Assembly: GCF_944324505.1 (NCBI RefSeq)
Contig: NZ_CALUWO010000002.1
Location: 124,001 to 188,000 of the forward strand
Origin: an uncultured Desulfovibrio sp.
GTDB taxonomy: Bacteria > Desulfobacterota > Desulfovibrionia > Desulfovibrionales > Desulfovibrionaceae
Direction: 5' to 3'
DNA length: 64,000 bases
Shown piece by piece: positions 2,594 to 40,158 of the stretch. The notes under the pieces are model-generated. The model was not told the DNA's origin. It made no database searches and was given only the letters and a program-made list of their open reading frames with translations. The translations under genes and the position numbers were made by a program. The stretch's first letter is position 1, and every line of letters begins with the position of its first letter.

Positions 2594-2881
2594 CTACAGT
2601 TCCGGCGGGGGAAGCGTCTGCCCGTCCTGCACGGCATCCAGCCAGGTGGCCAGGGTCACGCCCATGTCCACCAGTCTGTCCCGGCCAATGCGACCGCTTT
2701 CGTAACAGAGCAGCACGGAGCCGCTCAGGGGATTGATGTCCACACTGCGCACACCGGGCACGGCCAGTATCTGCTGGCGGGTCTGCCGGGCCACGGCCTC
2801 CTGTTGCAGAGCAGGATGGCGCAGGCGGACCCTGCCGGGCAGAAAGCTGCGCACATAGCGAAGAAAGGATGCCGTTTCCAT
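2594..2881 (-). CDS. Small HMA-like protein, possible ferrosome protein FezC
   Basis: 95-residue soluble protein. The segment PGRVRLR, a helix, then VPGVRSVDINPLSGSVLLCYE follows the beta-alpha-beta pattern of an HMA2-type heavy-metal-associated fold, but there is no CxxC metal site. The first residues of the neighbouring ATPase carry a similar pattern (GRMRVR). The ATG shares its A with the stop codon of the ATPase (TGATG), so the two are translationally coupled. In Desulfovibrio magneticus the ferrosome operon has three genes around a P1B-6 ATPase; I infer from position and fold that this is the small partner of that set. The metal-binding role is unproven. Confidence 0.7.
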   Translation of the reverse strand: METASFLRYVRSFLPGRVRLRHPALQQEAVARQTRQQILAVPGVRSVDINPLSGSVLLCYESGRIGRDRLVDMGVTLATWLDAVQDGQTLPPPEL

Positions 2882-5046
2882 CAGCAGACCTCCCCGAGGA
2901 CGGGCAGCCCTTCCCCGGTATCCGCGGCTGCCGGACCGGACGGCAGATGCGGGCGCATGGCATTAAGGGTGATGCCCAGGGTCGTCAGATTGTGCAGCAG
3001 GGCGGAGGCGCCGGGCGCCAGTACCATGGTCAGGCCGCCGAGCAGAAACAGGCTGTTGAGCACCATGGCGCTCACAAAGTTGGTGTGGATGCGGCGCAAT
3101 GTGGCCCGGCCCAGCTGCCTGGCCAGCAACAGCCCTTCCAGATCAGGCCGCGTCAACAGCACGTTGGCCACCTCGCGGGCCAGGTCCGCCCCGTCACACA
3201 TGGCCACGCCCACATGAGCCGCCGACAGGGCCGGCGCATCATTGATGCCGTCCCCCACCATGAGCACGCGGCAGCCCCGGGCATTGAGGTCGTCGATGAC
3301 GGCGGCCTTGTCCGTGGGCAGCACCTGGGCACGGTATTCCTCGATGCCCAGCCGGGCGGCCACGGCCCGGGCGGTGCGCTCGTCATCGCCGGTAAGCATG
3401 CACAGGCGTGTTATGCCCTGCTGCCGCAGTGCCTCCAGCACGGCCGGCGCCTCGGGACGAAGGGGGTCCTCCACGGCCAGCAGCCCGGCAATGCTGCCGT
3501 CCACGGCCAGATAGAGCAAAGACCGGCCCAGACGCGCCTGTGTCTCCATGACAGGCAGCATGACATCAAGGTTCACACCCTCGTCATGTTCGATGTAATG
3601 GCGGCTGCCCACCCGCACCTTACGGCCGTGCAGGGACGAGGCCACCCCGTGGGCCACCACATATTCCACCTGGGCATGTTCTTCCTCATGGCGCAGGCCC
3701 TCTTCCCGGGCACGCCGCACCACGGCACGGGCCACGGGATGCGGAAAGTGCTCTTCCAGGCAGGCGGCCAGACGCAGCACCTCGTCGCGCACATGGCCGG
3801 GAGCGGCAAAGACCTCCGCCACACGCGGCGTGGCACTGGTCAGTGTCCCGGTCTTGTCAAAGACCACGGTATCCACCTCGGACAGCGCCTCGAGATAGCG
3901 CCCGCCCTTGATGACCACCCCGTGCCGCGCCCCCTCGCGCATGGCTGCCAGCACCGCCAGCGGCGTGGCCAGGCGCAGGGCGCAGGCATAGTCCACCAGC
4001 AGCACCGCCGCTGCCCGGCGGGCATCGCGCGTCAGCAGCCAGACCAGCGCGGCCAGGGCAAAGGTAAAGGGCACGGCCATGTCCGCAAGACGTTCATAGC
4101 GCCCCTGGATGCCGGCCTTGAGGGCCTCGGATTCCTCGATGAAGCGCACCACCTGCCGCAGGCGCGTGCCGTCCCCCACCTGCACGGCCCGGATGACCAG
4201 ACGCCCCTGCTCCACCACCGTGCCGGCATAGACCGAGGCCCCCGCGCTGCGGGGCACGCCCAGCGGCTCGCCGGTCATGGAGGACTGATTGACCACAGCC
4301 TCGCCCTCCACCACCACGCCGTCCACCGGAATGCTGCCGCCGTCGCGCACCACCACGCAGTCTCCCGGCACAATGTCCGCCAGTGGCACGGCCTGCTCCA
4401 CGCCCTTTTCCAGCCGCCACACACTGTCCACCGTCAGGGCCAGACTCTGCGCCAGGCTGTCCAGGGAATGGCGCCGTGTCCAGTATTCCAGGGTTTCGCC
4501 CAGCCCCAGCAGCAGGGTCAGGGTGGTGACGGTACGAAAATCACGCCGCAGCAGGGAAACGCCTATGGCCGCCGCATCCAGCACCTCCACCGAGCAGCGC
4601 CCCTGCGCAAGAGCGGCAAGGCCCTTGCGCACATAGGGCAGGGCATGCAGCACGCAGCTCAGCGTGCGCAGCAGCACAGGCAGGAACGGCCGCACAAGGA
4701 AGAAGCGCAGCAGCGGTCCCATGGCGCCGGGGGGCGGCGCTTCCTCCGCCAGTCCTTCGCGGCGTGCCCCGTGCGGTGCGCCGCACGGCAGGGGGGCGCT
4801 TGTGCCCGCCTCCGCTGCCCGGCTGCGGGCGGCCAGGCAGCACAACGCCCTGCGGCGCATGGCCGGGTCATCATAGAAAAACAGCAGACTTCCCACCCGT
4901 GGACTGACGTGCTGCACATGCAGGCCGGCCGCAGCAAGGGCGCTGCCGATCTCCTGTGCCTCGGCTGCCGAAAGCGGACGGGAAGCGCGCACGCGCATTC
5001 TGCCCCCTGTGGTGCCGGACAGTTCGTGGACAATGAAAAAACGCAT
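2881..5046 (-). CDS. fezB: P-type metal ATPase of P1B-6 type, likely ferrosome protein FezB
   Basis: 721-residue membrane ATPase. Residues 1-60 are an HMA2-like domain without CxxC. The actuator motif is TGE (258-260), the phosphorylated Asp is D397 in DKTGT, the nucleotide domain has an HP dipeptide near 436, and the hinge is TGDD (552-555) and GDGINDAP (598-605). The transmembrane metal motif of most P1B pumps (CPC, SPC, CPH) is absent; in its place stands DYACALRLATP (352-362). Such non-CPx motifs are known in the P1B-6 group, which includes FezB, the pump that loads iron into ferrosome organelles. It lies between a small HMA-like gene and a small membrane-anchored gene, with feoA upstream. 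Iron as substrate is inferred from class and context. Confidence 0.8.
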   Translation of the reverse strand: MRFFIVHELSGTTGGRMRVRASRPLSAAEAQEIGSALAAAGLHVQHVSPRVGSLLFFYDDPAMRRRALCCLAARSRAAEAGTSAPLPCGAPHGARREGLAEEAPPPGAMGPLLRFFLVRPFLPVLLRTLSCVLHALPYVRKGLAALAQGRCSVEVLDAAAIGVSLLRRDFRTVTTLTLLLGLGETLEYWTRRHSLDSLAQSLALTVDSVWRLEKGVEQAVPLADIVPGDCVVVRDGGSIPVDGVVVEGEAVVNQSSMTGEPLGVPRSAGASVYAGTVVEQGRLVIRAVQVGDGTRLRQVVRFIEESEALKAGIQGRYERLADMAVPFTFALAALVWLLTRDARRAAAVLLVDYACALRLATPLAVLAAMREGARHGVVIKGGRYLEALSEVDTVVFDKTGTLTSATPRVAEVFAAPGHVRDEVLRLAACLEEHFPHPVARAVVRRAREEGLRHEEEHAQVEYVVAHGVASSLHGRKVRVGSRHYIEHDEGVNLDVMLPVMETQARLGRSLLYLAVDGSIAGLLAVEDPLRPEAPAVLEALRQQGITRLCMLTGDDERTARAVAARLGIEEYRAQVLPTDKAAVIDDLNARGCRVLMVGDGINDAPALSAAHVGVAMCDGADLAREVANVLLTRPDLEGLLLARQLGRATLRRIHTNFVSAMVLNSLFLLGGLTMVLAPGASALLHNLTTLGITLNAMRPHLPSGPAAADTGEGLPVLGEVC

Positions 5047-5061
5047 GCGCGCCGACCTCCG

Positions 5062-5310
5062 CTAGGCGTCCGCCTGCTGCGAGGCCTTCCGTTCATCGGA
5101 CCGGGCGCGCGCCTCGGCGGCCAGGTCCTGCACATCTTCCCGCACGGATTCCACCTTCTGCAGCAGGGCGTCCTTCACGTCCATGCCGCGGCTGATAAGG
5201 TCCGTGGCCAGCGGCTTGAGGTCCACCTTGCCACGGCTCACTGCCGTAGCGCCGATGGCGCCCAGCACCAGGCCGCCCAGAAAAACCAGGCCGTACTTCA
5301 TTGCTTCCAT
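5062..5310 (-). CDS. Small membrane-anchored protein, DUF6110-like, possible FezA
   Basis: 82 residues: one hydrophobic segment near the N-terminus (YGLVFLGGLVLGAIGATAV) followed by a charged, helical, Ala/Glu/Arg-rich tail likely in the cytoplasm. The start chosen is the ATG at 5310, which sits 8 bases after a strong AAGGAGG; an ATG at 5316 is only 2 bases from that site, and one at 5346 has none. The ATPase gene follows 15 bases downstream. It resembles the small membrane proteins (DUF6110 type, from memory) that accompany P1B-6 ATPases. Assignment as FezA rests on position and topology only. Confidence 0.65.
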   Translation of the reverse strand: MEAMKYGLVFLGGLVLGAIGATAVSRGKVDLKPLATDLISRGMDVKDALLQKVESVREDVQDLAAEARARSDERKASQQADA

Positions 5311-5665
5311 GTCCATTTCCTCCTTGTGATGATGCCGCACCGCCACAGGCGGCAGGCACGGCTTCGGCTGGGCTGCCGGGCACCTCGGCCAGCCGCCGAA
5401 CGATGCAGGACGCCCTGTTCACCGGAAAAAGGGCGCACGAAAAGACCCACGTGCCTTCATGCAAAAGGCACATGCCGGAAAGGGTTTTCAACGCACGGGG
5501 AACGAAAGCGGCGCGCGAGCCGCGCCGTTGTGTCGTCAGACTGCCTGGGACGCTGTGCGAAATACCGTGCCGCTGTCCTGCCGCACGGCATGCCCCGCTC
5601 CGGGTCTGCCGGGCATCACCTGCCGCGACAGGACCGGACCAGGCCGCAACGCCTCCGGGAAGCTG
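5311..5665. other. 355-base spacer between feoA and the fez-like operon
   Basis: No credible gene. It must carry the promoter of the fez-like operon, but no clear -35/-10 pair stands out. Two stem-loops are visible: GGCGCG-N5-CGCGCC at 5510-5526, followed on the minus strand by a T-rich stretch, and GTGCCTT-N7-AAGGCAC at 5451-5471. The first may end the feoA transcript. Confidence 0.5.
5502..5526 (-). terminator. Possible terminator after feoA
   Basis: Stem GGCGCG / CGCGCC with a 5-base loop, followed on the minus strand by GCTTTCGTT. The T run is broken, so termination may be partial. Confidence 0.4.
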
Positions 5666-5902
5666 CTAGGATACGTCGATGCGGATATGGTCCGCCTCGC
5701 TGTTGCGCAGGGTAACCGTTACCCCGGAAATGCGCAGGGCCACAGGATCCTTGAGCGGCGCCCTGCCTACCACGGACACGGTGGCGCCGGGAATCAGGCC
5801 CATATCGCGAATGCGGCGGCCCATTTCTCCCAGAGCCTCAACGGCGGCGATTTTGCCCTGCTGGCCCACGGCCATCTGACGCAGACTGATGACATTGCTC
5901 AT
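5666..5902 (-). CDS. feoA: FeoA-family ferrous iron transport protein
   Basis: 78-residue SH3-like protein of the FeoA family. Typical features are IRDMGLIPGATVSVVGRAPLKDPVALRI and a C-terminal TVTLRNSEADHI. FeoA binds the cytoplasmic side of the iron importer FeoB or acts as a stand-alone adaptor; no feoB is in the window. The ATG at 5902 follows AAGGAG at good spacing, while the longer reading frame upstream (TTG at 6010) runs into promoter sequence. It lies upstream of the fez-like genes on the same strand, separated by 355 bases. Confidence 0.9.
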   Translation of the reverse strand: MSNVISLRQMAVGQQGKIAAVEALGEMGRRIRDMGLIPGATVSVVGRAPLKDPVALRISGVTVTLRNSEADHIRIDVS

Positions 5903-6013
5903 GGAAAGCTCCTTGTTTGGTCTCGCCCGCCTGTTCCGGTACGCCATGGCGCTGTGTACGCCACAGGGGCAGGTGAACGCGTACCGGAACAGCAAAAAAC
6001 GGGCTTGCAAAGA

Positions 6014-6042
6014 ACTCTGACCTACTTTAGGGTGAACGTCAA
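6014..6042 (-). promoter_or_regulatory. Candidate feoA promoter with internal dyad
   Basis: On the minus strand TTGACG (-35) is followed after 17 bases by CAGAGT (weak -10). The spacer holds the near-dyad ACCCTA-aag-TAGGT. A weak -10 with a dyad in the spacer is compatible with activator control, for example a MerR-type regulator; this is inference. Confidence 0.4.
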
Positions 6043-6046
6043 GAGA

Positions 6047-6072
6047 AATAGAATGCGAAATTCAATTCTATT
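6047..6072. promoter_or_regulatory. Inverted repeat between feoA and divergent gene, likely operator
   Basis: Perfect 8-bp arms AATAGAAT and ATTCTATT separated by 10 bases, in a short AT-rich patch just upstream of the feoA -35 and 29 bases before the divergent ORF. The position suits a shared operator, possibly for an iron regulator. It is not a clean Fur consensus. Confidence 0.5.
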
Positions 6073-6100: not shown

Positions 6101-6307
6101 ATGAAAAACAGTCAGCAAAATTTGGCAAAAACTCTCCCCGTTCGTCCCCTGTGGAACCGCAAGACGGCCCTGCGCGTCATGCTGGGGACACTGGGTATTT
6201 CCGTGCTGCTGGGGGCGGCCGGAAAAAGCCGGGCACACGTGGCCACGGGCCTGCTGTTCGGCACCCTGCTGGCAGATCATGTCTGGACCCGGCGCAAGGC
6301 CCTCTGA
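6101..6307 (+). CDS. Small membrane protein, unknown function
   Basis: 68 residues with two hydrophobic stretches (LGTLGISVLLGAAG and HVATGLLFGTLLADHVW) and basic ends. ATG at 6101 follows GAGG with a 5-base spacer. The segment HVATG...DHVW resembles the two-helix His-containing pieces of small cytochrome-b-like proteins, but this is weak. Divergent from feoA and the fez-like genes, and followed after 3 bases by another small membrane-protein gene; a link to metal handling is inferred from position only. Confidence 0.6.
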   Translation: MKNSQQNLAKTLPVRPLWNRKTALRVMLGTLGISVLLGAAGKSRAHVATGLLFGTLLADHVWTRRKAL

Positions 6308-6310
6308 GCC

Positions 6311-6625
6311 ATGCCGGCAAAGGCATCCCCGCTCCTCTCCTCCCGCTGGATGCGTCGCCTGGGTCTGGCCCTGCTGCTGGCCCTGAGCCTGGGCACAGCG
6401 GCCCTGCTGCTGGCGCATCTTGTGGTCAGCCTGATGCTGGCTCTGGCCCTGCTGCTGTTTGCGGCAGGCGTCACCGCCCTGTGGCTGCCGCATGAGGGCA
6501 AGGCCCTCCTGGGCACCCTGGGCAGCCAGCTGGAGACGCCCCGGCAGGATGCGGGTCCGGCAGCCCCTGCCGGGACGGCCCGGCATTCCCGCAGCGCAGA
6601 CGCCGGCGCATGCCGCCCGGCATAA
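6311..6625 (+). CDS. Small two-helix membrane protein, unknown function
   Basis: 104 residues: a basic start, two adjacent hydrophobic helices spanning roughly residues 17-60 (LALLLALSLGTAALLLAHLVVS, split by little polar sequence), and a polar Ala/Pro-rich tail. It begins 3 bases after the stop of the upstream small gene and was probably acquired or kept with it as a pair. I do not recognise a family. Confidence 0.5.
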   Translation: MPAKASPLLSSRWMRRLGLALLLALSLGTAALLLAHLVVSLMLALALLLFAAGVTALWLPHEGKALLGTLGSQLETPRQDAGPAAPAGTARHSRSADAGACRPA

Positions 6626-39338: not shown

Positions 39339-39989
39339 CTACTCCGCCGCGTTTTTCTGCCCTCTGCCGCCACCGCGCGCAGGCATGACCGCGCCCGTGC
39401 GCTGCATGATGAAGGCAAACAGCTCCTGCGGGGTCATGCCATTGGCCGCGGCAATATCCCGAAAAATGCTCTCCGGCGCAGGATTGCCCGTGAAGCCGGC
39501 GTCGTTCATGGCGTGCAGCAGGCGCTCACAATCCAGGCCCAGAAAAGCACTGAACTGTTTCAGCGTGCTGGTTTCCGCATGGCCGAACGGCGGTTCCCCG
39601 TATTTTCTGGCCTGATAGGCCTTGACGGCATCATTAAGGTCCACCAGCTGCTTCATGGGCGGCAGGCCCAGCAGGGTTCCCTCGTAAACCACCACGCAGA
39701 TGATCACCGCCGCGGTCAGGGCCACCCGGCTGCGCCGTCCCCCGGCCATGCTGCCCCGGGCATAGGCGACAATGGCCTTCCAGTTGAGCACCGTATGCCA
39801 CAGCCCCGCGCATAAAAACAGCGCGCCGCCGGTAATGTGCAGATCGGCCCACTGGGCCTTGGTAAAGAGCACGTGCCAGTCTGCCCAGTAGGCTACACGC
39901 CCTTCGGGAACAATGTAGAGCATGACGGAGCTGATGATGAGCAGCAGAAAGGAAATGAACACCGTCAGGGAAACGATTTTGCGCAGCAT
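39339..39989 (-). CDS. DUF4405-like membrane protein (cytochrome b561-type helices)
   Basis: 216 residues. Four helices in the first ~125 residues: IVSLTVFISFLLLIISSVMLYIV, DLHITGGALFLCAGLWHTVLNWKAIVAYA and VALTAAVIICVVVYEGTLLGL. Two His (DLHITG, LWHTVLN) placed as in DUF4405/b-type cytochromes, so haem binding is possible. The soluble tail ends MTPQELFAFIMQR, a short helix motif seen in such proteins. GGAGG precedes the ATG at 39989. Confidence 0.72.
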   Translation of the reverse strand: MLRKIVSLTVFISFLLLIISSVMLYIVPEGRVAYWADWHVLFTKAQWADLHITGGALFLCAGLWHTVLNWKAIVAYARGSMAGGRRSRVALTAAVIICVVVYEGTLLGLPPMKQLVDLNDAVKAYQARKYGEPPFGHAETSTLKQFSAFLGLDCERLLHAMNDAGFTGNPAPESIFRDIAAANGMTPQELFAFIMQRTGAVMPARGGGRGQKNAAE

Positions 39990-40158
39990 ATCTTCCTCCG
40001 GCAGCGCGAGTCTGGAACGGTTTTTTGTAGCCTGCTCCCGGCCATGATGCAAGCGTATGTGCCCGCTGCCCCGGCATGATATCGCGGCCGGACAGTCCTG
40101 CCGGCCGGGACATTGCCCCGACAGGGATCAGCGCGCAGAACTGTTCCGCTTCATCCCC

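Follow-up and report, generated by a model that had tools for sequence, protein, structure and literature searches.

Ferrosomes are membrane-bound iron stores, and the question raised by this locus is whether it encodes a ferrosome (fez) system and, if so, how the parts of that system are distributed over its genes. The locus lies in a 64-kb stretch of DNA from an uncultured Desulfovibrio sp. (the window, meaning the whole stretch analysed). We compared it with the fez cluster of Desulfovibrio magneticus RS-1, for which ferrosomes have been demonstrated. The preliminary description had read the locus as a fezA-fezB-fezC set; homology upholds fezA and fezB, whereas the gene assigned to fezC encodes only the HMA half of that protein. 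Because the shared core of FezA and FezB is present, we regard the locus as a variant of the fez system rather than a non-member, and we consider it likely that this is a Fur-controlled ferrosome locus in which the functions of FezC reside on separate polypeptides. Judged from its genes, the organism, which is related to D. magneticus, would make ferrosomes.

The FezA-FezB core and the adjoining feoA

The genes for an HMA_2 protein (2594-2881), a P-type ATPase (2881-5046), a small membrane protein (5062-5310) and FeoA (5666-5902) all lie on the minus strand. The HMA gene and the ATPase gene overlap by one base, and 15 bases separate the ATPase gene from fezA. The tight spacing described earlier thus holds for fezA, fezB and the HMA gene but not for feoA, which lies about 355 bases from fezA (gap 5311-5665; about 90-105 bases in several of the nearest relatives). 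This gap contains two terminator-like hairpins on the minus strand, possibly marking an attenuator or a separate promoter, and a single transcript is therefore not assured. FeoA (78 aa; PF04023, E 8e-19) occupies the same place in most congeners, and its position beside the fez genes is conserved across most of the genus. The proposed pairing with feoA stands to this extent, but the one clear FeoB in the genome is on another contig, so the FeoA of the window is a solo protein rather than part of a feoAB importer. Searches of the same genome for the ferritin family returned weak matches only.

The 721-aa ATPase matched the Pfam E1-E2 ATPase and hydrolase families. Its TM4 motif is DYACALRLATP, confirming that it lacks a CPx motif (neither CPC nor SPC); the counterpart in RS-1 FezB is DFSCAIKLSAP. 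One position of the TM4 metal motif, occupied by Ser or Thr in almost every relative, is Ala in the window protein, a point that speaks against the ferrosome reading. It also carries an HN motif in TM6, which has been named as a P1B6 feature (PMC9374683), and an N-terminal GRMRVR, so that D[YF]xCA in TM4, HN in TM6 and GRxRxR at the N-terminus are signatures common to the window and RS-1 proteins. Identity was 45% with RS-1 FezB, compared to 31-35% with the two further P-type ATPases aligned from the same genome, each a CPC pump. In the tree, the window ATPase fell within the FezB group and apart from these CPC pumps. General heavy-metal ATPase models do match the protein, as expected if it were an ordinary Cu, Zn or Co exporter; however, it scored far below the cut-offs of the copper and zinc exporter equivalog models, missing them by a wide margin, and its metal motif, partner genes and tree position are unlike those of the CPC pumps in its own genome. 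We consider such an exporter highly improbable. By its sequence features, the ATPase is a FezB-type P1B-6 pump, an identification borne out by homology and synteny with RS-1 and by its cross-phylum pairing with FezA.

The 82-aa membrane-anchored protein encoded directly upstream scored above the gathering score of PF19605 (DUF6110) and matched the product of the small gene that immediately precedes fezB in D. magneticus (E 3.8e-15). DUF6110 proteins usually accompany P1B6 ATPases (PMC9374683). A FezA homologue stood beside the ATPase in 57 of the 61 loci read, and the gene arrangement is therefore not a matter of chance. In a cross-phylum sample, FezA was found within 600 nt of 19 of 26 ATPases with the D[YF]xC motif and of none of the 53 others (Fisher p 7e-13); the seven motif-bearing ATPases lacking a nearby FezA include two whose contigs end near the gene. 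Family membership, synteny with RS-1 and this cross-phylum pairing identify the protein as FezA, in agreement with the earlier assignment.

The PacL1-CtpC system of Mycobacterium tuberculosis likewise sets a small single-TM partner beside a P1B ATPase whose TM6 contains HN. We therefore weighed a plasma-membrane efflux platform of this kind, in which FezA would cluster the ATPase, excess Zn, Mn or Fe would be exported and no organelle would be formed. The PacL family (DUF1490) and DUF6110 are relatives, and CtpC and the P1B6 ATPases both carry HN in TM6 (PMC9374683). However, two features of that platform, the CPC of CtpC and the metal-binding tail of PacL1, are absent here: TM4 of the window ATPase lacks CPC, and the 82-aa FezA contains no His and no C-terminal metal-binding motif. 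The predicted Fur control (see below) suits a gene for low iron rather than a detoxification pump, and the ATPase is kin to the ferrosome ATPase of D. magneticus. Taken with this evidence, the efflux platform appears unlikely, and the ferrosome reading is preferred. Ferrosomes of Clostridioides difficile depend on FezA and FezB, both of which are repressed by Fur (PMC12574912); by this description, the window locus shares with it the FezA-FezB pair, and Fur control of the window locus is predicted. Other clostridial loci (e.g. L129, L132-L136, L139) carry FezA-FezB with no HMA and membrane gene detected.

Two genes for the domains of FezC

The RS-1 locus was taken from a genome that carries the RS-1 primer P22 of PMC6210102 once and with no mismatch. 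At 3.19 Mb, it encodes FezA (86 aa), FezB (743 aa) and a 146-aa protein in which an HMA_2 domain is joined to a two-helix segment with two invariant His. FezC has been described as a b-type cytochrome and modelled as a homodimer (PMC10979944); from this description, the gene order and the His residues, we infer that the 146-aa protein is FezC. The window and RS-1 loci share the order and homology of FezA and FezB, the domains of FezC and a tandem Fur-box-like site upstream. They differ in that the RS-1 locus lacks feoA and encodes a single fused HMA and membrane protein behind fezB, whereas in the window FezC is split, the gene for its membrane half is divergent and feoA comes first in the unit. 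In the D. magneticus locus (L064, 5228-8226), an Rrf2-like regulator and cydAB-like (cytochrome bd) genes lie directly upstream of fezA.

The 95-aa protein (2594-2881) matched HMA_2 (PF19991, E 6e-12) and aligned with the N-terminal HMA part of the fused RS-1 protein (35% over 69 aa, E 4e-10). Its AlphaFold model (pLDDT 92) gave best Foldseek matches that were mostly HMA metal-binding domains (lowest E 0.005), so that the predicted structure resembles HMA domains. It consists of the HMA part only, without the two-helix segment. The naming of this gene as fezC is thus half right: it is homologous to the HMA half, but the membrane half is encoded separately, by a divergent plus-strand gene at 6101-6307. 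The interval first described (2594-6072) ends just short of this further component.

The divergent gene, pointing away from feoA, encodes a 68-aa protein. An HMM made from fused FezC sequences alone, all of them from outside the main genus group, matched it at 3e-12. Two His residues spaced 14 residues apart in the membrane half are invariant in 57 of 57 sequences; in the 68-aa protein they are H46 and H60, candidate haem ligands invariant among its relatives. AlphaFold, run with an alignment of 7 sequences (mean pLDDT 79), predicted a helical hairpin (20-40/43-65) with both His on one helix. Both FezC domains are therefore present, but on two genes of opposite strands, and a single-protein FezC with HMA and two-helix segment is absent. 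In DUF4405 cytochromes, too, two His of a single helix are the proposed haem ligands, but these proteins show no significant sequence match to the FezC membrane half: a DUF4405 search for FezC found other DUF4405 proteins, the D. magneticus FezC-like gene not among them, and a profile comparison of the membrane half with a DUF4405 protein was weak (probability 1.3%), with both His aligned. Elsewhere in the window, the two His of a DUF4405 cytochrome-like protein (39339-40052, minus strand; E 8e-17) line up with the pair in the membrane half of FezC.

Both genes are shorter than fused FezC and might be decaying, functionless fragments of a duplicated FezC. Yet about ten species of the genus have an intact ORF for each, both His are invariant, the HMA GRxRxRH motif is retained and third-position GC is coding-like, which leaves decay quite improbable. 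A functional, putatively haem-binding membrane half is the reading we follow. Three bases past the 68-aa gene begins a 104-aa hydrophobic ORF (6311-6625, plus strand), which by its position and coding-like GC3 (0.81) may, with some uncertainty, add another small membrane protein to the divergent unit. It had no BLAST homologue among the loci compared; two loci (L065 and L105) have a two-helix-like ORF at its position.

Predicted Fur control and proposed working of the locus

We scanned the window with a matrix of the Desulfovibrio Fur sites in Table 3 of PMC545781. A tandem Fur box was predicted upstream of feoA (6049-6071), composed of two overlapping sites at 6049 and 6055; their 6-base offset is the same as in published Desulfovibrio tandem Fur sites (PMC545781). 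Its score of 18.7 was the top tandem score in the 64-kb window, compared to 12.0 for the next independent site. The score was reached in 4 of 2000 dinucleotide shuffles of the intergenic region, and in 18 of 2000 when only the AT-rich part of that region was shuffled. The feoB locus of the same genome, used as a positive control, scored 24.7 and 35.8. A high-scoring tandem Fur-like site was also present upstream of the operon in most relatives. A scan of the locus for sigma-70 promoters found none.

In the proposed working of the locus, Fur would leave the shared promoter region when iron is scarce, and feoA, fezA, fezB and the HMA gene would be transcribed one way and the putative haem-binding half of FezC the other. 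FezA, with one TM helix and a charged cytoplasmic helix, would assemble with FezB in the membrane and help form vesicles, into which FezB would pump Fe(II), its presumed substrate, once iron returns. The HMA half and the FezB N-terminus are both cysteine-free HMA_2 domains, and the former probably serves to dock at FezB or to supply it with iron. A dimer of the two-helix half, formed around the haem b that it is predicted to bind, would probably carry electrons across the ferrosome membrane for iron storage or remobilisation. The metal and electron functions of FezC would thus act in trans in the window lineage. With the FezC domains encoded by separate genes, each could be deleted or purified alone, and single-domain deletion could separate the roles of FezC in iron loading and iron release in ferrosomes; gene deletion is an established method in RS-1 (PMC6210102).

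Distribution and origin of the separate genes

FezC arrangements were surveyed in 61 loci. Outgroup loci mostly have fezA-fezB followed by a fused HMA and TM gene, and in some the fused gene is on the opposite strand. In fifteen loci of the genus FezC is divergent and full-length, and every one of these except one also has an HMA-only gene following fezB; ten, including the window, have a TM-only divergent gene and an HMA-only gene in the operon. One locus (L104) was counted with the HMA ORF, which is present there though below the length filter of the table. In the tree, HMA-only copies formed one clade and divergent fused copies another. Since many congeners combine an HMA-only gene with a full divergent FezC, the split probably arose by duplication of FezC followed by complementary domain loss. 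Two separate truncations of the divergent FezC were unsupported, and a single origin was not rejected (AU p 0.14). A fuller scenario, which we advance tentatively, is that FezC was duplicated in the genus to yield a metal-binding operon gene and a haem gene divergent from feoA, arranged about a bidirectional Fur switch and functioning in trans; this single switch would then govern an import helper, a storage pump and a redox module together. Most species of this sulfate-reducer genus are likely ferrosome formers, with storage linked to the FeoA gene.

Two loci (L079 and L080) contain tandem P1B ATPases, some of them non-CPx, with a separate two-helix gene and no FezA, and L080 also has an HMA gene; by gene content, they represent a distinct relative of the fez system. 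A complete fezA-fezB-fezC set was observed in Duodenibacillus massiliensis (L127, 4542-7900), which is not a sulfate reducer; its FezB is 50% identical to that of the window, suggesting gene transfer.
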